Assembly: GCA_029256085.1 (NCBI GenBank)
Contig: JAQSYP010000001.1
Location: forward strand, 496,001 to 560,000
Direction of reading: 5' to 3'
From: Caryophanales bacterium
GTDB lineage: Bacteria > Bacillota > Bacilli > CAJFEE01
DNA length: 64,000 bases
Part shown: piece by piece, positions 4,244 through 37,725 of the stretch
How positions within the stretch are numbered: the first letter of the stretch is position 1
Layout of the letters: the number at the start of each line of letters is the position of its first letter
Translations under genes and position numbers: made by a program
Notes under the pieces: model-generated
Seen by the model: only the letters and a program-made list of their open reading frames with translations
Database searches by the model: none
What the model was told of the DNA's origin: nothing

Positions 4244-4272
4244 TTGACATAAATAGTATAACACATTAGAAT
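4244..4272 (+). promoter_or_regulatory. Sigma-A promoter of SR1
   Basis: TTGACA (4244-4249), a 17-nt spacer and TAGAAT (4267-4272). The predicted start is near 4279. A cre-like pseudo-palindrome GTTAAGCGTTTACA (4276-4289) overlaps the start region, consistent with carbon control of SR1 in B. subtilis, although its first two consensus positions are off. Confidence 0.75.
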
Positions 4273-4307
4273 AAAGTTAAGCGTTTACAATAAAAGGAGC
4301 GATTTTA

Positions 4308-4433
4308 ATGGGTACAATCGTATGTCAAGGCTGCAATAGAACATTAGGTCATTTCGAAGATGAAAAAGTAACTACTTTGTATAGTACAAATGAAAATTGT
4401 GATTGTGCAAAAAATGAAATAGAAAGTAATTAA
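4308..4433 (+). CDS. SR1P, GapA-binding peptide encoded by SR1 RNA
   Basis: A 41-residue peptide starts at ATG 4308 behind a strong AAAGGAGCG ribosome site. It reads MGTIVCQGCNRTLGHFE, then a short acidic and Ser/Thr stretch, then CDCAKNE; the two CxxC/CxC cysteine pairs are as in SR1P. In B. subtilis this peptide (39 residues) binds glyceraldehyde-3-phosphate dehydrogenase GapA and promotes its partnership with RNase J1. The peptide is too short for most gene callers but is well supported by the promoter, ribosome site, terminator and genomic position. Confidence 0.85.
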   Translation: MGTIVCQGCNRTLGHFEDEKVTTLYSTNENCDCAKNEIESN

Positions 4434-4547: not shown

Positions 4548-6020
4548 CTATCTAATCGCGTGTTCTGCTTTTATTACTCTCAAATAATTTATTTCTGGAT
4601 CTTCTGGTCCTTGAACAGGTAATTCAGCATCCTTATTTCTTTTAATATATTCTATTAGATCATCCGTAATAATTTCACCAGGAATATATATCGGAATCCC
4701 AGGTGGATATACCATAATAAATTCTGCAATAATTCTACCAGCAGCTTCATTAATCTTTATTCTTTCAGTAGTCGCGTAGAATGCTTCTCTTGGAGAAATA
4801 GCTAAAGATGGTATATCAGGAATATCGACTTTAACAACTTTTCCTTCCTCAGCAAAGTGTTTAAACTCTTCAACTAAATGCTTCAAGGCTTTTATAAGAA
4901 GTTTTAAATCATCTTCACTTTCTCCTAACGTAACTAAGCATAGGATATTATACAAATCTGAAAGTTCAACTTCTATATTATAATTTTCCCTTAACCACAC
5001 TTCTACGTCATGACCTGTAACTCCTAATTTTTTCACAGAAATTATAAGTTTTGAAGGGTCGAAATTAAAAGTTTCGGGACGACCGAGTATATCCTCACCT
5101 GGACAATATAAATATGGTATTTTATTAATTTCGCTTCTCGTCCAATTAGCTAAACTGATAGATCTATCGAGTTGATTGTGTCCTTCAGTTGCTAAATATT
5201 TTCTTGCACAGTCTAATGACGAAAGTAATATATAAGATGTTGACGTTGTAGTCAACATACTAAGGACTGCTTGAACTCTTTCTTTTTTTACTAAACCTTC
5301 TTTAAGATTTAATATAGAAGACTGAGTAAGTGAGCCACCAAGTTTATGAACACTTGTTGCTGCTAAATCAGCGCCTGCTTGCATTGCGGATAAAGGTAAT
5401 TTCTCGTTAAATGGCAGGTGAACCCCATGGGCTTCATCAACTAAGACAGGAATATCATAAGAATGCGCAATTTCAACAACTTTTTTTAAATCAGTTGTAT
5501 AACCATAGTATGTCGGATTAATAACTAACAAACCTTTTGCGTCAGGGTGTAGCTCAAGTGCTTTCTCTACAGCATGTGTAGTAACACCATGTGAGATTCC
5601 CAAATTCTCATCGATTTCTGGGTGAATAAATACAGGTTTTGCACCTGAAAATATTATTGCAGACATTATTGATTTATGAACGTTTCTAGGAACGATTATC
5701 TTTTCTCCTGGTCCAACAACACTCATAATCATTGCAATAATAGCACCTGAAGTACCTTGTACTGAGAAAAAAGTATAGTCAGCATGAAATGCTTCTGCGG
5801 CTAGTTCTTGTGCCTTGAGTATCATTGATTTTGGATGATGTAGGTCATCTAAAGGAGCGATATTTATTAAATCTATAGAAAGTGCATTTTCTCCAATAAA
5901 TTTTCTGAAATCAGGATCCATTCCGGCCCCTTTTTTATGGCCAGGTATATGAAACTGAACAGGATTTTTTGAAGCATGTTCAACTAATCCAGTGAACAGT
6001 GGTGTTTCGTGTTGAGACAT
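4548..6020 (-). CDS. speA: PLP-dependent arginine/lysine/ornithine decarboxylase, probably SpeA
   Basis: A 490-residue fold-type I amino-acid decarboxylase of the compact Bacillus type. PLP-binding Lys226 is in SVHKLGGS, the DEAH motif (195-198) holds the cofactor-contacting Asp and His, and SVQGTSGA lies near 86-93. In B. subtilis the protein at this position, SpeA, decarboxylates arginine to agmatine for polyamine synthesis. Start ATG 6020 follows a GGGGG site. Its context (SR1 downstream, yktA divergent) matches B. subtilis exactly and is the reason for choosing arginine over lysine or ornithine as substrate; the sequence alone does not decide that. Confidence 0.88.
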   Translation of the reverse strand: MSQHETPLFTGLVEHASKNPVQFHIPGHKKGAGMDPDFRKFIGENALSIDLINIAPLDDLHHPKSMILKAQELAAEAFHADYTFFSVQGTSGAIIAMIMSVVGPGEKIIVPRNVHKSIMSAIIFSGAKPVFIHPEIDENLGISHGVTTHAVEKALELHPDAKGLLVINPTYYGYTTDLKKVVEIAHSYDIPVLVDEAHGVHLPFNEKLPLSAMQAGADLAATSVHKLGGSLTQSSILNLKEGLVKKERVQAVLSMLTTTSTSYILLSSLDCARKYLATEGHNQLDRSISLANWTRSEINKIPYLYCPGEDILGRPETFNFDPSKLIISVKKLGVTGHDVEVWLRENYNIEVELSDLYNILCLVTLGESEDDLKLLIKALKHLVEEFKHFAEEGKVVKVDIPDIPSLAISPREAFYATTERIKINEAAGRIIAEFIMVYPPGIPIYIPGEIITDDLIEYIKRNKDAELPVQGPEDPEINYLRVIKAEHAIR

Positions 6021-6235: not shown

Positions 6236-6508
6236 ATGAGTGAATATACTTACCCAATTAACTATTCATGGTCAACAGATGAACTTATAATAATAGTAAA
6301 ATTTTATGAAGTTATTGAAAAAGCATATGAATCAGGTGTAAACAGAAAAATACTTATGGACCATTATCGTAACTTCAAGACAATTGTAAATTCTATATCC
6401 GAAGAGAAGAAAATAGATAAGGAATTTCAGGAAGTCAGTGGTTACTCTATATATAAAGTCATAAAAAAAGCAAAAGAAAGTGATGATACTTCTATTATAA
6501 AAGGTTAA
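6236..6508 (+). CDS. yktA: UPF0223 family protein YktA
   Basis: A 90-residue soluble protein starting [20 protein letters not shown], the diagnostic opening of the UPF0223 family. It then has a helical body with [17 protein letters not shown] and ends in a Lys/Glu-rich helix. It sits divergent to speA, as in B. subtilis. The usual next gene, yktB, is absent; the tryptophan operon occupies that place. Function unknown. Confidence 0.88.
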
Positions 6509-6550
6509 AGGTAATCTATTTAAAAATTTAGAAAATACTGAATAAAGTAA

Positions 6551-6579
6551 TTGACATTAGAATATAATTGGAATATGAT
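6551..6579 (+). promoter_or_regulatory. Sigma-A promoter of the trp operon
   Basis: TTGACA (6551-6556), a 17-nt spacer and TATGAT (6574-6579). It places the transcript start near 6586, just before the first T-box stem I. Confidence 0.8.
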
Positions 6580-6599
6580 TTAAAACAATAAAGTATTTA

Positions 6600-6870
6600 T
6601 ACTAATGCTTTGATGAAGAATAGTAACATTTACTCATACCTATAGAGAGCTGATGGTTGGTGGAAATCAGTGGAAAGTAAATGCGAATGGACTTCTAGCA
6701 TCCAAACCGAACACCTTGTAAGGTTAGTAGGCCTTGGCGAAACTCTCATCGTTACAAGAGAAGGTATTAATTGTTTAAAACAATGATACTCATGAAGTGG
6801 GCTGATTTTCAGCTAATTAAGGTGGTACCACGGGTCTCCCGTCCTTTTATAGGATTGGAGACCCTTTTTG
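6600..6870 (+). promoter_or_regulatory. T-box riboswitch 1 of the trp leader (tRNA-Trp sensing)
   Basis: Stem I carries the conserved AGAGAGCTGATGGTTGGTG segment, and the specifier loop reads GAATGGAC with UGG (Trp) at 6688-6690. The T-box motif AAGGTGGTACCACG lies at 6819-6832. The terminator GGGTCTCC ... GGAGACCC plus TTTTT spans 6832-6869. When uncharged tRNA-Trp binds, the antiterminator forms and transcription continues into the second T-box. The bulge reads UGGU, which can only make a wobble with a G discriminator base. No TRAP-type (G/U)AG repeat run is present. Confidence 0.9.
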
Positions 6871-6927
6871 TTTTTATATAATAACTAAATCGTTGAGTAA
6901 GGAAAGTACTTAATTTTTAATTCTTTA

Positions 6928-7162
6928 CAGAGAGCTAGGGAAGGTGTGAACCTGGCAAGAAGGAATTAAGGAATGGTCTTACAAGAGGTAACTTGAATTA
7001 TAGTAGAGTTATCCGGAGTTCCACCGTTAAAAGGATAGGATATAAGATTACTCTCGTATCTGAAAAAGGGACCATTCTGTTGGTCTGAAAAGAGGTGGCA
7101 CCACGCTAAGGAATCGTCCTCTATGTGTATGAACAATCATGCACATAGAGGGCGATTTTTTA
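6928..7162 (+). promoter_or_regulatory. T-box riboswitch 2 of the trp leader (tRNA-Trp sensing)
   Basis: A second complete T-box follows the first by about 60 nt. AGAGAGC opens stem I, the specifier loop reads GGAATGGTC with UGG at 6974-6976, and the core GGTGGCACCACG lies at 7094-7105. The terminator, CGTCCTCTATGTG paired with CACATAGAGGGCG plus TTTTTT, spans 7115-7162. The bulge is UGGC, complementary to a GCCA acceptor end as in Bacillus tRNA-Trp. Two Trp T-boxes in series should give tighter off-states than one; tandem trp T-boxes are known in the B. cereus group. Confidence 0.92.
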
Positions 7163-7190
7163 TTTAAGTGAAAGTATAAAAATTACATTC

Positions 7191-7300
7191 GCAGAAAATG
7201 CTCGCTTTCCGCGGGCACGGCCTCAACTAATTTTTGCAAGTTTACACTTGCAAAAATGGATTTTCGACTCGTGCTGTTCCCGCTGGAGTCTTGCAGTTTC
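7191..7300 (+). repeat. Dispersed palindromic element, family A copy 2, inside the trp leader
   Basis: Same core as copy 1 with TTTTTGCAAG/CTTGCAAAAA at its centre. The right flank (CTTCGTGTAATAAATTAA, TTCTAAGAG) is shared with copy 3, so the full element may reach to about 7340. It lies between the second T-box terminator and the trpE ribosome site, within the transcribed leader, where it would fold into a large hairpin in the mRNA. Confidence 0.85.
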
Positions 7301-7382
7301 CAGCTTCGTGTAATAAATTAATCTTTCCTTCTAAGAGGACTTGGCAAAGATAGATAAATTAAATTAGAAAGGAGCAGTTGAT

Positions 7383-8789
7383 ATGCAGCGGAAAAAATAT
7401 GTGATCAAAGAAATTGCAGGGGATACACTTACGCCAATCGCAATTTTGCAAAAAATCTCTGGTGAAAAAAAGTTTCTACTAGAAAGCTCAAATAAACATA
7501 ATGATTCAGGTCGTTTTTCTTTTATTGGAACTGAACCAGTTATGGAGGTAATTGCCTTTGGAGATGAGATCGAAGTTTTAAAGAAAAATAAAGGTAAAGT
7601 TACTTTAAAAGGAAATCCAATAGAGTATTTAAAGAAGCTACTACCCAAAGTTGAACTAAACGAAAATGACAAAATAAAATCTCCATTTGTATCAGGTGCT
7701 GTTGGGTATATTGGATATGATATCATTCGTCAATTTGAGAATATTGGTAAAAATCAATTTGATGAAATGCAAATGCCTGACATTCACTTAATGATTTATG
7801 AGGAAATAATAATCTTTGATCATCTTGATGAAACAATTCAAATTATAGGCACACCGATACTAGAAGGAACTGACACTACTACATTAGAGGAACGCATAGA
7901 TATTCTTATTGATGAAATGACAAAAACAGTTTCGTATGAAGAAATTGAACAATTTAGTTTTACTATATTTAAATCTAATCTCACAAAAGATGAGTTTATT
8001 AAAAGCGTTAGTATCGCAAAGGAACATATAGTTGCTGGTGATATTTTTCAGGTAGTAATTTCTCAGAGAATGAAATCTAAGTATTCTGGAAACTCACTAT
8101 CATTATATCGAAAACATCGCAAACAAAATCCAACTCCATATATGTTTTATATAGATTTTAATACTTATACAGTCATTGGGTCCTCACCAGAATCTCTAGT
8201 GAAAACTGTTGATAAAACAATAATTACAAATCCAATTGCTGGGACGAAAAAACGTGGTAAAACTCTAAAACATGACCTTGAAATAGAAACCCAATTAAAA
8301 AATGATGAAAAAGAACTTGCAGAACACAAAATGTTAGTTGATTTAAGCCGTAATGATATAGGTAGGATTTCAAATTTCGGTACTGTAAAAGTCACTAAGT
8401 TCATGGAAGTAGAAAAATTCAGACACGTTATGCACCTAGTGTCAGAAGTAACAGGGGAGCTTGCAGGGGATAGTGAACCATTAGACGCATTATCTGTATG
8501 CATTCCAGCTGGTACAGTTTCTGGTGCACCTAAAATTAAAGCTATGGAAATTATAAATAAACTTGAGAAGTCAAGAAGAGGATTGTATTCAGGTGCAGTT
8601 GGATACCTATCAACAAATGGTAACTTAGATTTTGCGCTTGCGATCAGAACAATAGTTTTAAAAGATAGGCAAGCGTATATTCAAGCTGGTGCCGGGATTG
8701 TTTATGATTCAGATCCAGAATCTGAATATGAAGAAACTATTAACAAACTAAAATCATTTTTGGAGGATTACAATGATTTTACTAATTGA
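7383..8789 (+). CDS. trpE: Anthranilate synthase component I
   Basis: A 468-residue chorismate-using enzyme that makes anthranilate from chorismate and ammonia supplied by TrpG; it commits carbon to tryptophan. The N-terminal part has LLESS (31-35), the feedback-binding element. The C-terminal chorismate-binding domain carries PTPYMFYIDF, GSSPESLV, NPIAGTKKRG, DLSRNDIGR, IPAGTVSGAPKIKAMEII and QAGAGIVYDSDPESEYEET. Start ATG 7383 follows AGAAAGGAG. Its end overlaps trpG by 17 nt, implying translational coupling. First gene of the operon. Confidence 0.97.
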   Translation: MQRKKYVIKEIAGDTLTPIAILQKISGEKKFLLESSNKHNDSGRFSFIGTEPVMEVIAFGDEIEVLKKNKGKVTLKGNPIEYLKKLLPKVELNENDKIKSPFVSGAVGYIGYDIIRQFENIGKNQFDEMQMPDIHLMIYEEIIIFDHLDETIQIIGTPILEGTDTTTLEERIDILIDEMTKTVSYEEIEQFSFTIFKSNLTKDEFIKSVSIAKEHIVAGDIFQVVISQRMKSKYSGNSLSLYRKHRKQNPTPYMFYIDFNTYTVIGSSPESLVKTVDKTIITNPIAGTKKRGKTLKHDLEIETQLKNDEKELAEHKMLVDLSRNDIGRISNFGTVKVTKFMEVEKFRHVMHLVSEVTGELAGDSEPLDALSVCIPAGTVSGAPKIKAMEIINKLEKSRRGLYSGAVGYLSTNGNLDFALAIRTIVLKDRQAYIQAGAGIVYDSDPESEYEETINKLKSFLEDYNDFTN

Positions 8790-9384
8790 TAATTACGATT
8801 CATTTACCTTTAACTTGTATCAGTATCTAGGTGAACTAGGCGAAACGGTCACAGTAAGGAGGAATAATAAAGTTACTTCTGACTTTATTCTTGAACTAAA
8901 TCCTAAAGCAATCATCATCTCTCCGGGTCCGGGTAGACCTGAAGACGCAGGTGTATGTGTTGAGATAATAAAAAAGTTCTATAAATTCATACCAATACTA
9001 GGCATTTGCTTGGGACATCAAGCAATTGGATTAGCTTTTGGTGCAACTATTTCTCAAGCCAAATATATAATGCATGGAAAAAATTCTTTAATAAAACATA
9101 GTAGCGATTTGTTGTTTAAAGGTATTGATACTCCGTGTGAAGTAATGCGATATCACTCTCTAAGTATTAACGAAGTAAGCATTCCTCATGAATTAACATC
9201 TACTGCAAAGGCAGTAGATGACAATGAGATTATGTCTATTAAACATAAAAACTATCCTGTTTTTGGATTGCAATTTCATCCTGAATCAATTGGTACTCCA
9301 TCAGGTAAACAAATACTAAAAAATTTTCTAGAAATTGTTGGGAGGGAAAAAAGTAATGAAGAATTTTTTAATTCGCTTATCTGA
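8773..9384 (+). CDS. trpG: Anthranilate synthase glutamine amidotransferase component II
   Basis: A 203-residue class I glutamine amidotransferase that supplies ammonia to TrpE. The nucleophile Cys79 is in GICLGHQAIG; the His/Glu of the triad are in LQFHPESIGTP; the oxyanion region is SPGPGRPEDAG. Unlike B. subtilis, where one shared trpG/pabA lies in the folate operon, this copy is inside the trp operon, so it is probably dedicated to tryptophan; whether a separate pabA exists cannot be seen here. It overlaps trpE upstream and trpD downstream. Confidence 0.94.
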   Translation: MILLIDNYDSFTFNLYQYLGELGETVTVRRNNKVTSDFILELNPKAIIISPGPGRPEDAGVCVEIIKKFYKFIPILGICLGHQAIGLAFGATISQAKYIMHGKNSLIKHSSDLLFKGIDTPCEVMRYHSLSINEVSIPHELTSTAKAVDDNEIMSIKHKNYPVFGLQFHPESIGTPSGKQILKNFLEIVGREKSNEEFFNSLI

Positions 9385-10372
9385 ACAAAAATCATTCTCT
9401 GAAGAAGAAATGAAATCTGCAATTAAAGCACTGTTAAAAGAAGATATCACGGATGGGGAAATTGCAGGGTTTTTAATGGGATTAAAAGTTAAGGGTGAAA
9501 CAGTTGAAGAAATTACAGGGATCGTAAAAGTTCTAAAAGAAAATTCCATGGTTTTTCCAAACAAATATCAAAACATAATTGATAATTGTGGAACTGGTGG
9601 AGATGGATCAAATAGTTTTAACATTAGTACTACTTCAGCATTTGTAATAGCAGCTGCAGGGGCAAGGGTTGCTAAGCACGGAAATAGAAGTATTTCAAGT
9701 AAAGCTGGTAGTGCGGATGTATTGGAGTACTTAGGGGTAAATTTGCATTTATCATCAGAAAAAATTGATGAACTCTTGCGTGAGGTCGGAATTGCTTTTT
9801 TGTATGCACCTAATGTACATCCGAAATTAAAAAAAATTATAAATGTACGTAAACAATTAAAGGTTCCAACGATATTTAACTTTATCGGCCCATTAACAAA
9901 TCCAATAAATCTAGATTATCAATTACTCGGTGTATATCGTCGAGATTTATTAAAGCCATTTGCAGAAGTTTTGAGAGCACTTGGACGAAAACGTTCAATT
10001 GTAATTAACGGAGCAGGTTACTTAGATGAGGCTTCATTACAAGGAGAAAATCATATTGCAATTTTAGAAAACGGCCAAGTATCACTAAAAACATTTTCCC
10101 CCGAAGAAGTAGGGTTATCAAGAGTAGATAACAACTTATTAAGGGGTGGGAGTGCAAAAGAGAACGCCGAAATCCTATTAAGTGTCTTAAAAGGAGAAAA
10201 AAGCGTATATAGGGAAGCGGTTTTATTAAATGCAGGACTAGGTATCTATACAGCAAGGTTGGCGGAAACAATAGAACAAGGTATAGACATCGCAAAACGT
10301 TGTATAGACTCTGGTACAGCTCTTGAAAAATTCCAACTATTAAAAACAAAATCTCAGAAGGAGGTATCGTAG
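9356..10372 (+). CDS. trpD: Anthranilate phosphoribosyltransferase
   Basis: Joins anthranilate to PRPP to give phosphoribosyl-anthranilate. The PRPP/glycine-rich loop NCGTGGDGSNSFNIST, KHGNRSISSKAGSADVLEYLG, and FLYAPNVHPKLKKI are all family hallmarks. I chose ATG 9356, nine nt after GGAGGG and inside the end of trpG (29-nt overlap), over the upstream in-frame TTG at 9335. This gives 338 residues, the usual length. trpC follows with no gap. Confidence 0.95.
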   Translation: MKNFLIRLSEQKSFSEEEMKSAIKALLKEDITDGEIAGFLMGLKVKGETVEEITGIVKVLKENSMVFPNKYQNIIDNCGTGGDGSNSFNISTTSAFVIAAAGARVAKHGNRSISSKAGSADVLEYLGVNLHLSSEKIDELLREVGIAFLYAPNVHPKLKKIINVRKQLKVPTIFNFIGPLTNPINLDYQLLGVYRRDLLKPFAEVLRALGRKRSIVINGAGYLDEASLQGENHIAILENGQVSLKTFSPEEVGLSRVDNNLLRGGSAKENAEILLSVLKGEKSVYREAVLLNAGLGIYTARLAETIEQGIDIAKRCIDSGTALEKFQLLKTKSQKEVS

Positions 10373-11164
10373 ATGAAAACAATTTTAGATCAAATTTTAG
10401 AGGAGAAAATTAATGAAGTTATTCTACTGAAAAATAGACCGCTTATCGATGAAACTTATACAAGAAAGTCTCTTATTAATACATTAACCAACTCGAGAAG
10501 TTTATCCATTATAACTGAATATAAAAAAGCATCACCTTCGAAAGGAGTAATTAATAACAATATTGATCCAGTTTCACAGGCAAAGATCTACGAAGAAGCA
10601 GGAGCTGCTGCAATATCAGTCCTAACTGATACCAAATTTTTCAAAGGATCTTTAGGGGATATGAAAAACATTAAAAAATCTGTTCAACTACCTATCCTAT
10701 GCAAAGATTTCATAATAGATAAAATACAAATTGATTTTGCGAAAATGTTTGGGGCAGACATAATCTTACTAATAGTAAAAGCTATGAATCAGAATAGATT
10801 AATTGAGTTATATAACTATGCAAAAGTATTAGGGCTCGAAGTGTTAGTTGAAGTTCATAATTTAGAGGATTTATCAAAGGCCCTACATGCAGAAGCAGAG
10901 TTAATTGGAGTAAATAACCGTAATTTAAATGACTTTTCTGTAGACTTAAGTATTACAGAAGCCTTAGGTCCGGTAGTGAAAAAATCAGGAGCTTTCTTAA
11001 TTAGTGCTAGTGGAATTCATACTAAACAAGATGTTAAGAGAGTTAGGGATTCTGGAGCAGACGGAATTCTAGTAGGTGAGTCACTTATGAAAAGTGAGAA
11101 TGTTAGTATGAAAATGAGTGATTATAGGATTTCTCTCATGAATCGGGTAATGTATGAAAGTTAA
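10373..11164 (+). CDS. trpC: Indole-3-glycerol phosphate synthase
   Basis: A 263-residue (beta/alpha)8 enzyme that closes the ring of the CdRP intermediate to indole-3-glycerol phosphate. Visible motifs are IITEYKKASPSKG (catalytic Glu/Lys), YEEAGAAAISVLTD, PILCKDFIID (catalytic Lys), VEVHNLEDL, GVNNRNLNDF and SASGI. ATG 10373 directly follows the trpD stop and is preceded by AGGAGG. Its last codons overlap trpF by 11 nt. Confidence 0.96.
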   Translation: MKTILDQILEEKINEVILLKNRPLIDETYTRKSLINTLTNSRSLSIITEYKKASPSKGVINNNIDPVSQAKIYEEAGAAAISVLTDTKFFKGSLGDMKNIKKSVQLPILCKDFIIDKIQIDFAKMFGADIILLIVKAMNQNRLIELYNYAKVLGLEVLVEVHNLEDLSKALHAEAELIGVNNRNLNDFSVDLSITEALGPVVKKSGAFLISASGIHTKQDVKRVRDSGADGILVGESLMKSENVSMKMSDYRISLMNRVMYES

Positions 11165-11759
11165 AATATGCGGAATTACGGATATTGAATCAGCTGTTAT
11201 TTCATATTCATATGGTGCAGAAGCATTAGGATTTGTTTTTGCAAATAGTAAAAGAAAAATATCGGTTGAAACAGCAGCAGATATTAGTAGAAAGCTTCCA
11301 TCCAATATGATAAAGGTTGGCGTTTTTGTTAATGAGTCAAAAAAAGAAATAGAACAAATAGCAAAGAAAGTAGGGCTTACTCATTTACAACTTCATGGTA
11401 ATGAGAGTCCAGAATTTTGTAAAGAATTTTCCTTGCCAGTTATAAAAGCATTAAATATTGATTCGATCGTTGATTTACAGCTAATAAACAGATTTGAATG
11501 TGAGTACATTCTTATAGACGGGCCTAAGTCTAAATATAATGGTGGTAACGGTCTTAAGTTTAATTGGAAATTATTAAATTCTAAGGACTTTCCAACGAAG
11601 AAAATTATAATTGCTGGCGGATTAAACAGTGAAAATATAATAGAAGCTATTGATTTAACATCTCCGTACATGGTTGATGTGAGTAGTGGCGTAGAAACAA
11701 ACGGTAGAAAAGACATTAGTAAAATTATAGATTTTATCAATAAAGTTAAAACAAATTAG
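11154..11759 (+). CDS. trpF: Phosphoribosylanthranilate isomerase
   Basis: A 201-residue (beta/alpha)8 enzyme that converts PRA to CdRP. It starts [14 protein letters not shown] (catalytic Cys in KICG), then [29 protein letters not shown] (catalytic Asp), [10 protein letters not shown] and VDVSSGVE. It begins within the trpC stop region, which suggests coupled translation. Monofunctional, as in other Bacillaceae. Confidence 0.95.
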
Positions 11760-11773
11760 GATGGTGGTATAAC

Positions 11774-12982
11774 ATGAAAATACATACCTTACCGGATGCA
11801 AGAGGTCATTTTGGTATTTATGGCGGTAGATTTATTCCAGAAACATTAATGTCAGCAGTAATTGAACTTGAAGATGAGTACAATAAAGCGAAAATGGATG
11901 GAAATTTCAAAAAAGAGATTGATAGATTGCTAGAGGAGTATGTCGGAAGAAAAACACCTCTTTATTTAGCTGCAAATTTAACTTGTTATGCTGGTGGAGC
12001 TAGGATTTATTTAAAAAGAGAAGATCTAAATCATACAGGTGCACATAAAATAAACAATGCCATCGGGCAAGCTCTTTTAGCTAAAAGGATGGGTAAAAGA
12101 AAAATTGTTGCAGAAACTGGTGCTGGTCAGCACGGTGTTGCTACTGCTACAGTATGTGCTTTATTAAATTTAGAATGTATCATTTTTATGGGAACAGAAG
12201 ATATAAAAAGACAAGCTCAAAATGTTTTTCGAATGGAGCTACTAGGAGCTAAGGTTGTCGGTGTATCATCTGGAAGTTCAACTCTAAAGGATGCTGTCAA
12301 TGAAGCATTAAGGTATTGGGTAGCAAACGTAGATGATACTCACTATTTATTAGGTTCGGTTATGGGACCACATCCTTTTCCAACTATTGTAAGAGATTTT
12401 CAGAGTGTAATCGGATTTGAGACGAAGGAACAATTCCTTAAAAAAGAAAATCGACTTCCTAATGCAATAGTTGCTTGTATTGGTGGTGGAAGTAATGCGA
12501 TTGGAATGTTCTATCCTTTTATTGATGATACACAAGTAAAATTATTTGGAGTAGAAGCTGCTGGACAAGGGATTCATACAAACTATAATGCTGCTTCATT
12601 AACAAAAGGAAAACCAGGTGTTTTACATGGTGCCCTAATGTATTTATTACAAGATGAAAACGGGCAAATTCAAGAAGCACATTCAATTTCCGCAGGATTA
12701 GACTACCCTGGCGTTGGGCCAGAACATAGTTATTTAAAAGACTCTAAACGAGTGAATTATGATTCAATTACTGATAATGAGGCGCTAGAAGCATTTCAAA
12801 TTTTAATTAAATCAGAGGGTATTATACCAGCATTAGAAAGTGCACATGCTATAGCCTATGCCATTAGATTAGCAGCAGCTATGGATAAGGATGAAAGTAT
12901 AGTAGTTTGTTTATCTGGCCGTGGAGATAAGGATGTTGATACAGTTCGAGAAAAGCTAAAAGGAGCAAGTGGAAATGAGTAA
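11774..12982 (+). CDS. trpB: Tryptophan synthase beta subunit
   Basis: A 402-residue PLP enzyme that condenses indole with serine. It opens [16 protein letters not shown]; the PLP lysine is in [26 protein letters not shown] is the catalytic Glu region; [15 protein letters not shown] binds the PLP phosphate; and SLSGRGDKD-like [13 protein letters not shown] is at the end. TrpB1 type, which works with TrpA through an indole tunnel. ATG 11774 lies behind GGATGGTGG; its stop overlaps trpA. Confidence 0.97.
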
Positions 12983-13736
12983 ATTAATAAATGCTTTTCA
13001 TAATCTTAGAGCCAAGAACAAAAAAGCAATTATTCCATATATAATGGCAGGTGATGGAGGGATAGATTGTTTGAATGATAGGTTATTATTGCTAGAAAAT
13101 ATGGGTGCAACAGCAATTGAAATTGGAATTCCTTTTTCAGACCCTGTCGCTGATGGTCCAACAATTCAACAAGCTTCAATCAGGGCGTTAAATAAGAAAG
13201 TGACTTTAAAGCAAATATTATTAGAATTAAAAAAGGTTAAAAATTTATCAGTACCTATTATTTTAATGACCTACCTAAATCCAGTTTATGCCTATGGAAT
13301 TGACAAGTTTGTTATGGACATAGCTGATGCTGGAGTCTCTGGCTGTATCATTCCAGATCTTCCGATTGAAGAGGAAAACATAATTGCTCAACAGCTTGAA
13401 AAAAAACAAATTGAACTAATTAGATTAGTAACAATGACAACACCGCTAGAGAGGATTAAATTAATTTCTCAGAAAAAAAGTAGTTTTTTATATGCAGTTA
13501 CAATTAAGGGGATAACAGGTACTCGTTCTGAGCTCGATGAAACTATTGTTGATTTTATAGAAAAAGTTAAAAGTGTCACTTCAAAACCAGTTTTAGCTGG
13601 ATTTGGTATTTCAAATACTCAACAGATAATGCACCTTAATTCTTTTTGCGATGGCGTTATTATTGGCAGTAAAATTATTGAATTGTTTGAAACTAACGAT
13701 TTAAAAACAATGGAAAGCTTATTTATGACACAATAA
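12975..13736 (+). CDS. trpA: Tryptophan synthase alpha subunit
   Basis: Cleaves indole-3-glycerol phosphate to indole and G3P. Catalytic Glu and Asp are in [19 protein letters not shown]; the phosphate-binding region is LAGFGIS ... [12 protein letters not shown] 12975, nine nt after AAAGGAG, fits better than the in-frame GTG at 12969; this gives 253 residues and an 8-nt overlap with trpB. Last gene of the operon, followed by a weak hairpin terminator. Confidence 0.95.
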
Positions 13737-36162: not shown

Positions 36163-37575
36163 ATGAAGAAAGCATTCATTGGTTTTTTATTTTTCTTAAT
36201 AATTATTAGTTCAATTTTAATTTATATTCAATGGATAGATTTCCAAGAAAAAAAGGTCATTTCTAAATCTGTTGAAGGTGTTCGAAGTGAGGCGAGAATA
36301 AAAAGTAATAGCAACATTCTGAATATAGATCAGAGTTTCAATATTAAGGACGGGAATTCGTTTGAACTACTTATTCCAGTAGGAGCGAAAAACATAAAGT
36401 GTACTTATGAAAACAAAAAAGCTTGTAATAGCTATATTCAATCCAATAAGCTAGTTGTTAATATTTCTAAAAATAAACAATTCAAAGTAATATATAATTT
36501 ATTAGTTAGTCCAAAACAAGATGATTTAATGATTAATAAACCTTTCTTTTCTCCAACAAAGAAAACTGACATTGGGTTTAAATTTGATTTAATTGAGAAC
36601 TCAAGATTAACAGGCGAATGGATTTCAGGAGGGGAAACTGTTGCAGTTTCAAGGAAGGAAACATTAAATTTGTTTAGATTTAAATCGGATTCACTTGATT
36701 TATCACTATTTTATTCGAAAAATCGAATTCAAAAAATAAATAATCAACACAGTGTATTTTCAACAAATACAAATGAAAATGAAATACCTGAATTAATAAA
36801 TACAATTAAAAAAGTTATCCCTCAAAAAACTAAAATCAACTACTTAATAACTAATAACAAGGGTAGAAATTATTATTCAAAACATCTTGTAGTCATGGGT
36901 AACACTGATAACCCAAATATAATAATCAACAATTATTTAAGGAATTATTTATTAGATAGCTGGGAATTTGAAAATAGTAACAAAGAATACTCACTTAACG
37001 TTTTATCTGGGTTGATTTTGAATTCTAGCAATAATAACAAAGTAAAATTACTTTTAAACTCATGGAATGATTCTTTTGATGAAAAAACAAAAAGAAAAAT
37101 ATTGAAAGATTTATTTTCCAAAGATAAAAGGTTATTTACCTCAAAAATTCTAGACGCAAGTATAAGAAAGGTAACTGGTGACAAAACTAATTTTTTCGCA
37201 TTAAATGAAAAGAGTAAAGAGCTTATACCTTATTATTCATTCTATGATCAGCCGATATATATAAATAAGATAAAAATAAAACAAACAGCAATTAGTCTAG
37301 ATAAAAATGTTACGGTGCCAGTAAATGTTATTGAAAATTTTGGTTTTATTGTTAAAGAAGTAAATGGTAAGCTTTTAATAACCTCTAAGGAAAATAAGTG
37401 GGAATTTACAGGAACGAAGAAAATCTTTATTTTTAATAATGAGTATTATGAGGCAGAAGAAATACCAGTTGTTAAAATAAATGATGAATTTTATATCTCT
37501 GATATTTGGATAGACAAACTATTTAAGATAAAGATCACCCTAAAGAAGGATATGATTATAATAAATAAGCAATAA
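36163..37575 (+). CDS. Exported protein with C-terminal stalk-like (copper amine oxidase N-like) domain
   Basis: A 470-residue protein with a single N-terminal hydrophobic helix (about 5-24), which acts as anchor or signal. The bulk is Asn/Lys-rich and unrecognised (about 40-370), and includes a NYLRNYLLDSWEF segment that may be part of a peptidase-like helical region. The last 90 residues look like the stalk domain common in Gram-positive surface proteins: VTVPVNVIENFGFIVKEV, GKLLITSKEN, ISDIWIDKLFKIKI. No catalytic site seen. ATG 36163 follows AAAGGAG. Located between ylbG and rsmD. Confidence 0.5.
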   Translation: MKKAFIGFLFFLIIISSILIYIQWIDFQEKKVISKSVEGVRSEARIKSNSNILNIDQSFNIKDGNSFELLIPVGAKNIKCTYENKKACNSYIQSNKLVVNISKNKQFKVIYNLLVSPKQDDLMINKPFFSPTKKTDIGFKFDLIENSRLTGEWISGGETVAVSRKETLNLFRFKSDSLDLSLFYSKNRIQKINNQHSVFSTNTNENEIPELINTIKKVIPQKTKINYLITNNKGRNYYSKHLVVMGNTDNPNIIINNYLRNYLLDSWEFENSNKEYSLNVLSGLILNSSNNNKVKLLLNSWNDSFDEKTKRKILKDLFSKDKRLFTSKILDASIRKVTGDKTNFFALNEKSKELIPYYSFYDQPIYINKIKIKQTAISLDKNVTVPVNVIENFGFIVKEVNGKLLITSKENKWEFTGTKKIFIFNNEYYEAEEIPVVKINDEFYISDIWIDKLFKIKITLKKDMIIINKQ

Positions 37576-37580
37576 AAAAA

Positions 37581-37599
37581 ACCCTGCCAATTGCAGGGT
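37581..37599 (+). terminator. Hairpin after the stalk-domain gene
   Basis: ACCCTGC-CAATT-GCAGGGT, followed by CCTTCTATTTC. The tail is poor in T, so it is a weak terminator; an A-run precedes it. Confidence 0.5.
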
Positions 37600-37619
37600 C
37601 CTTCTATTTCTAGAAACTA

Positions 37620-37725
37620 GAAAGAAGGTAAAGGGAGAGGAGAAACCGGAGGAAGAACTTATGGGGAAACGTAAGTCTTCTCCGCGGTTGGCACAACATC
37701 ACTAGAGATGTTGCCGTATTAGTTT
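37620..37725 (+). ncRNA. ylbH leader RNA upstream of rsmD
   Basis: A structured GC-richer island 85 nt before rsmD (ylbH). The main hairpin pairs CCGGAGGAAGAACTTA with TAAGTCTTCTCCGCGG around GGGGAAAC. A second stem, GGCACAACATC with GATGTTGCCG, follows. A purine-rich GGAGAGGAG precedes them. A conserved ylbH leader motif is catalogued in Bacillus upstream of the same gene (Rfam). The match is by location and two-stem layout; ligand or mechanism is not known to me. Confidence 0.6.

Follow-up and report, generated by a model that had tools for sequence, protein, structure and literature searches.

Tandem T-boxes in the trp operons of Bacillota were reportedly described by Gutierrez-Preciado et al. 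in 2005 and 2007. According to the available part of one study, trp biosynthesis genes in this phylum are strongly enriched in tandem T-boxes, and a table there lists, for the cases contiguous with trpE, two T-boxes in 99% and three in 1% (PMC12452182). A (T-box)(T-box)-trpE operon together with a trpS T-box is likewise given for a bacillus, Bacillus methanolicus (PMC4342826). As for the base that faces the tRNA discriminator, the accessible sections of the TBDB paper, which covers over 23,000 T-boxes, report that 46% of Trp T-boxes carry U as their variable base despite the G73 of tRNA-Trp, call a U opposite G73 previously noted and allow it to form a wobble, and name tandem T-boxes as future work (PMC7778990). 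Our literature search returned no account of which bases are combined in a tandem pair; earlier T-box studies outside its reach may report it.

The locus studied here is an ordinary member of this arrangement, both of its main features, tandem trp T-boxes and a U opposite G73, being already in print. In the window, by which we mean the whole 64,000-nucleotide stretch of DNA analysed, two complete Trp T-boxes, both with a specifier and a terminator of their own, stand in series and in the same direction within 6601-7163, upstream of the seven genes trpE-trpG-trpD-trpC-trpF-trpB-trpA (Table 1). This architecture shows no difference from the Bacillota trp tandem T-boxes as the available part of that study presents them (PMC12452182), and it resembles that of B. 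methanolicus, as its source excerpt gives it, down to the presence of a trpS T-box elsewhere in the genome (PMC4342826).

Table 1. Features of the tandem T-box leader and the operon downstream, in window coordinates.
Feature	Coordinates	Strand	Basis
Sigma-A-like promoter, TTGACA-17-TATGAT	6551..6579	+	Promoter scan, 11/12 matches
T-box 1 (Trp), Stem I to antiterminator	6601..6849	+	RF00230, 126.7 bits
Specifier UGG, T-box 1	6688..6690	+	Sequence and Rfam alignment, context GAA-UGG-A
T-box 1 bulge UGGU-ACC; 6826 = U facing G73 (wobble)	6823..6829	+	Sequence, Rfam, tRNA 3' end
T-box 1 terminator hairpin and U tract, GGGUCUCC...GGAGACCC UUUUU	6832..6869	+	By-eye sequence reading; predicted fold -23.6 kcal/mol
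T-box 2 (Trp), Stem I to antiterminator	6884..7124	+	RF00230, 121.4 bits
Specifier UGG, T-box 2	6974..6976	+	Sequence and Rfam alignment, context GAA-UGG-U
T-box 2 bulge UGGC-ACC; 7099 = C pairing with G73	7096..7102	+	Sequence, Rfam, tRNA 3' end
T-box 2 terminator hairpin and U tract	7112..7163	+	Terminator scan, 20 pairs; predicted fold -34.5 kcal/mol
trpE, trpG, trpD, trpC, trpF, trpB, trpA	7383..13736	+	NCBIfam models

Both Rfam RF00230 matches span the full length of the model (1-219) and lie above its gathering score of 93 bits, and Stem I, the specifier loop, the AGUA and CGUUA motifs, the antiterminator and the T-box sequence could be aligned in each. The U tract of terminator 1 is separated from the start of the second match by 14 nt; the terminator scan did not report this first terminator (6832-6869), which was read from the sequence by eye. 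In both elements the predicted folds of antiterminator and terminator overlap, so that the two structures would be mutually exclusive, and in both a 7-nt UGGNACC bulge is present that is able to pair with the NCCA end of the cognate tRNA. A first-pass annotation, made from the DNA letters, had read both specifiers as UGG. The Rfam alignment agrees, placing UGG in the specifier loop of both T-boxes, and the specifier helix resumes one unpaired base after it in each case, which is the preferred frame under the rule given in the accessible sections of the TBDB paper (PMC7778990). This specifier also fits the downstream pathway, the trp operon. Since a promoter-like site lies upstream of T-box 1, the sole plus-strand site reported in a scan of 6500-7400, and the same scan reported none between the two T-boxes, both elements probably share one transcript, although the two promoter-like sites in the scanned region do not exceed the number in shuffled sequences (mean 2.6).

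What the two bulges face depends on the tRNA. A tRNA search of the whole genome gave 53 matches, and ARAGORN, run on these loci, called one tRNA-Trp(CCA), whose 3' end (...CCCCTG-CCA) makes the discriminator base G73. Using this tRNA-Trp itself as the query again identified one copy in the genome, while the single weak match left uncalled by ARAGORN (C4:784-847) reads as a tRNA-Phe-like piece. Because a tRNA cluster lies at the start or end of several of the 17 contigs, the assembly may lack a further tRNA copy. G73 was found in 28 of 28 tRNA-Trp genes, recovered from 25 of the 26 genomes searched. Opposite G73, the UGGU bulge of T-box 1 forms a U·G wobble and the UGGC bulge of T-box 2 a C-G pair. 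The discriminator base that the first-pass annotation had named as the check thus bears out its description of the first bulge as offering a wobble only and of the second as complementary to the tRNA end. The wobble itself is like that of the Trp T-boxes in the part of the TBDB paper available to us but, unlike in the description given there, it sits in one of two tandem elements (PMC7778990).

At E <= 0.001 the same genome gives 21 matches to the T-box model, of which 19 exceed the gathering score. Besides the tandem pair, a Trp specifier was recognised in two: one, with the bulge UGGU, stands before trpS (L004; identity of the gene confirmed by TIGR00233), and the other, with a UGG specifier and the bulge UGGC, stands on the minus strand before an APC amino-acid permease (L003; G000:C4:45936-46190). 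The wobble is therefore found in two of the four recognised Trp T-boxes of this genome. For the permease the best NCBIfam model is BcaP, with a score under the cut-off (494.8 versus 690 bits), and its leader suggests that the protein may be a tryptophan-responsive transporter. Other specificities give a similar picture. The argS T-box, with specifier and gene name read by eye, faces a G73 tRNA with U, and before putative ileS (L005) and valS (L008) the T-box has C where tRNA-Ile or tRNA-Val, respectively, has A73, giving a C·A mismatch; here the specifiers, the gene names and the end of tRNA-Val(tac) are by-eye readings, argS, ileS and valS having been named in this way rather than by a family search. 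Taken together with the Trp cases, these elements suggest that pairing at the discriminator position is not strictly Watson-Crick in this genome.

We compared the window with the upstream regions of trpE in other genomes, collected by searching whole genomes for TrpE in the class (163 of 398 matched, 90 of the 163 read), in one order (109 of 299 matched, 107 of them read), in the same order resampled (67 of 199 matched) and in two families (16 of 21 and 17 of 19 matched), plus 11 named loci. In total 207 upstream regions were read and three were dropped by hand, two as partly duplicated (L060 and L121) and one as not Trp-like (L115). The remaining 204 comprise 141 full tandems, in which each of the two T-box motifs has a UGG specifier to itself, 39 single T-boxes, 20 regions without a T-box motif and 4 unclear cases. 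Writing the G73-facing base of T-box 1 before that of T-box 2, the 141 tandem leaders of Bacilli, the window included, divide into 62 U,C, 52 C,C, 22 C,U and 5 U,U, counts that are inflated by clades. They occur in 48 genus labels, namely 41 lettered genera and 7 named records (three of them Neobacillus), one of which (L058) shares its T-box 1 core with a lettered genome (L271) and was probably counted twice; U,C is found in 23 of these labels and C,U in 8. The window therefore has the commonest of the four pair types, and its two elements differ in the base facing G73 as they do in 84 of the 141 leaders (62 U,C and 22 C,U). Among the 39 single T-boxes before trpE, the base is C in 26 and U in 13.

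In a validation search of Clostridia, 48 of 398 genomes matched, yielding 30 loci, five of which are Bacilli; the other 25 were read and have single, partly duplicated or no T-boxes, with no full tandem pair among them. Across the loci of this search and Hathewaya, five leaders (L060, L286, L287, L290 and L292) carry one UGG specifier and, 79-119 nt apart, two T-box-like motifs of which the first is degenerate (GGTGGCATAGCG or GGTGGCAAAGCG), and we read them as part-duplicated T-boxes.

A tree of the individual elements was built from an earlier set of 128 leaders, which also served for the first rate and direction tests and still contained L060, L115 and L121. When each element was assigned by majority vote among the three elements closest to it in other genera, 127 of the 128 T-box 1 elements grouped with T-box 1 and 125 of the 128 T-box 2 elements with T-box 2, and the two elements of the window were nearest to Neobacillus-type T-box 1 and T-box 2, respectively. 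The elements are thus orthologous by position across relatives, which implies an old duplication, with T-box 1 and T-box 2 forming distinct lines of descent. Of the leaders closest to that of the window, the first six (three from Neobacillus, one from a Bacillus MAG and those of g225 and g210) are C,C, and the eight that follow also carry C in T-box 1. Judged by these sequences, the change from C to U in T-box 1 looks derived in the lineage of the window; this direction comes from the nearest neighbours, because the two trees used gave different fitted directions.

By parsimony the base changed 15 times in T-box 1 and 10 times in T-box 2, and equal rates of change between C and U in the two positions were not rejected (p = 0.75; p = 0.51 in the earlier set). 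With rates this similar in both T-boxes, and with counts inflated by clades, a positional rule of U first and C second is unsupported. We also considered the position that follows UGGNACC and lies at the foot of helix A2, which is A in 114 of 141 T-box 1 elements and G in 132 of 141 T-box 2 elements. The pair there is A-U in 113 of the 140 readable T-box 1 elements and, for T-box 2, G·U in 124 of 141. The available portion of one review describes the G-U wobble at this foot as the primary steric sensor of 3'-aminoacyl tRNA (PMC7583486). Since a shared-rate model was not rejected (p = 0.22), the difference between A and G can be plain inheritance, and a separate effect of this base is unsupported.

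In light of these results, it is highly probable that the leader carries two complete tRNA-Trp T-boxes in series that read the same tRNA, and that the U of T-box 1 is a tolerated change. We infer tRNA-dependent antitermination and serial action from the form of the leader. T-box 1 would be transcribed first, and uncharged tRNA-Trp, held by UGG and the bulge, would stabilise antiterminator 1; antiterminator 2 would then need the same stabilisation before RNA polymerase could reach trpE, so that readthrough to trpE would be roughly the product of the readthrough at each T-box. Both checkpoints would have to sense tryptophan starvation, and the leak in full tryptophan would therefore be multiplied down. 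Both T-boxes would read one tRNA, with anticodon CCA and G73, and because G73 pairs with either base, C or U is allowed opposite it. The U of T-box 1 would then be a lineage-specific change tolerated within the old T-box 1 lineage, rather than a second specificity. Striking as it looks, such a difference between adjacent sensors is commonplace among Trp T-boxes and calls for no special tRNA. On the other side, U,C leaders outnumber C,U leaders (62 versus 22), which might be taken to mean that order matters, though the rate test on the tree lends this no support, and the scarcity of U,U pairs suggests that the base opposite G73 is not wholly neutral.

All five U,U pairs belong to a single genus, g69 (L076, L239, L245, L246 and L251), and in each of them the T-box 1 bulge is UGGU-AUC and that of T-box 2 is UGGU; in another six genomes of this genus the bulges are UGGU-ACC and UGGC, a U,C pair. 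A dependence model in which gains toward U,U are scaled outperformed independence (factor 0.067, p = 0.0013, 1 df; p 0.0016 to 0.005 on four bootstrap trees), these one-parameter p values being post hoc because the double-wobble idea arose after the counts were known; for general dependence p was 0.012 (4 df). In simulations under independence the observed likelihood ratio was reached in none of 88 usable runs (of 120), while U,U numbered five or fewer in 25% of runs and zero in 1.7%; with the other fitted rates of the earlier set, a U,U count of five or fewer arose in 4.9% of simulations. The fitted rates lie near the boundary, and their direction differs between trees. After the idea had been noted, 14 new loci were fetched from two labile families. 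One of them is a part-duplicated leader (L322) and the other 13 are full pairs, with no U,U among them; the check is a weak one, these loci being closely related to others in the existing set. We consider the evidence for avoidance of a double wobble in tandem trp T-boxes to be suggestive. One tentative and still doubtful explanation is that at least one of the two T-boxes must pair with G73 in Watson-Crick fashion, U,U being selected against because the readthroughs multiply. U would then be tolerated as long as the partner keeps C or, in one genus, the T-box 1 bulge is altered, and the window would represent one such lineage. Gene conversion between the T-boxes would be expected to favour both like pairs, C,C and U,U, and so to run counter to the deficit. 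Single T-boxes with U before trpE exist (13 of 39), yet U,U is absent from the 131 tandem leaders in which both bulges are intact; if confirmed, this would amount to a simple rule by which riboswitches in series divide between them the cost of pairing weakly with their ligand.

The first-pass annotation had proposed that the two T-boxes differ in tRNA affinity and so give a graded response. Taken further, T-box 1 would be a deliberately weaker sensor by virtue of its wobble and T-box 2 a stronger one, a reading we think rather unlikely. The wobble on which it builds is real, and its predicted cost in an isolated 4-bp helix is about 1.4 kcal/mol (UGGU:GCCA -2.8, UGGC:GCCA -4.2 kcal/mol), or about 10-fold at 37 °C. 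U-then-C is also the commonest pair (62/141), and in a simple series model EC90/EC10 is 55 for a 10-fold difference in threshold, as against 40 for two equal switches and 81 for one switch, so that an unequal pair would be slightly less steep, and slightly more graded, than an equal pair while giving the same kind of response. The other predicted energies of the window run the opposite way, T-box 1 having the stronger antiterminator (-7.0 versus -4.0 kcal/mol) and the weaker terminator (-23.6 versus -34.5 kcal/mol). These are nearest-neighbour values that leave aside the tRNA, Stem III contacts and kinetics, and by them T-box 1 is no weaker overall, which leaves a difference in affinity with a graded response possible; the effect of the wobble is probably small. 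Moreover, equal rates of change at the two positions were not rejected (p = 0.75), and 8 of the 48 genus labels show the opposite order, C,U. Elements with U were also not found to make up for the wobble with a stabler antiterminator, there being no genus-level difference for T-box 1 (p = 0.79) or T-box 2 (p = 0.63). U-bearing T-box 2 elements do have weaker terminators (9 versus 43 genus labels, p = 0.007, in one of four tests).

A decay of T-box 1 that would leave the work to T-box 2 is very improbable. The five g69 genomes with the T-box 1 bulge UGGU-AUC would fit such a loss, but T-box 1 of the window outscores T-box 2 in Rfam (126.7 versus 121.4 bits) and has an intact UGGNACC, a CGUUA motif and a predicted terminator, and leaders with two T-boxes occur in 48 genus labels. 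Alteration of the bulge is also not confined to T-box 1, since five other leaders among the 141 have AAC in the bulge of T-box 2.

A reading in which T-box 1 recognises another tRNA, either a variant tRNA such as the first-pass annotation had entertained, here a tRNA-Trp carrying A73, or tRNA-Met if the specifier is read in its AUG frame, is barely conceivable and we set it aside, for although UGGU is fully complementary to ACCA, its U pairing with A73, and AUG is embedded in AAUGG, the one tRNA-Trp found has G73, as have 28 of 28 tRNA-Trp genes (25 of 26 genomes), AUG is equally embedded in the C-bearing T-box 2 and in the C-bearing T-box 1 of relatives, and the Rfam alignment frames the specifier as UGG rather than AUG.

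Turning to the operon downstream, trpE, trpD, trpB and trpA score above the cut-offs of TIGR00564, TIGR01245, TIGR00263 and TIGR00262, respectively, and TrpG above that of the subfamily model TIGR00566. trpC lies above one TrpC model (NF001377, 282.1 versus 260) and below its best-scoring model (299.3 versus 307), and trpF is under the cut-off of its best model (235.1 versus 259). A search of the genome for TRAP (PF02081) gave no match, while the Bacillus subtilis control did match. The best TrpE match to the window trpE (7383-8789) in a genome of the same family, G001, is 38% identical and has a single T-box there (L066), whereas TrpE of Neobacillus niacini is 64% identical over the best segment; transfer of the trp operon is possible on this comparison of protein sequences.

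Between the T-box 2 terminator and trpE lies a repeat of about 140 bases (7180-7320), with at least 40 matches in the genome at E <= 1e-5 (the best 40 of 101 candidates). The distance from the second T-box motif to the TrpE match is 289 in the window and at most 190 in 125 of the 141 leaders. Elsewhere in the window, a weak match to the SR1 sRNA (4266-4391; 46.6 bits against a gathering score of 45) lies near a minus-strand gene read as an Orn/Lys/Arg decarboxylase (4548-6020), and a ylbH leader RNA is found at 37572-37687 (115 bits).
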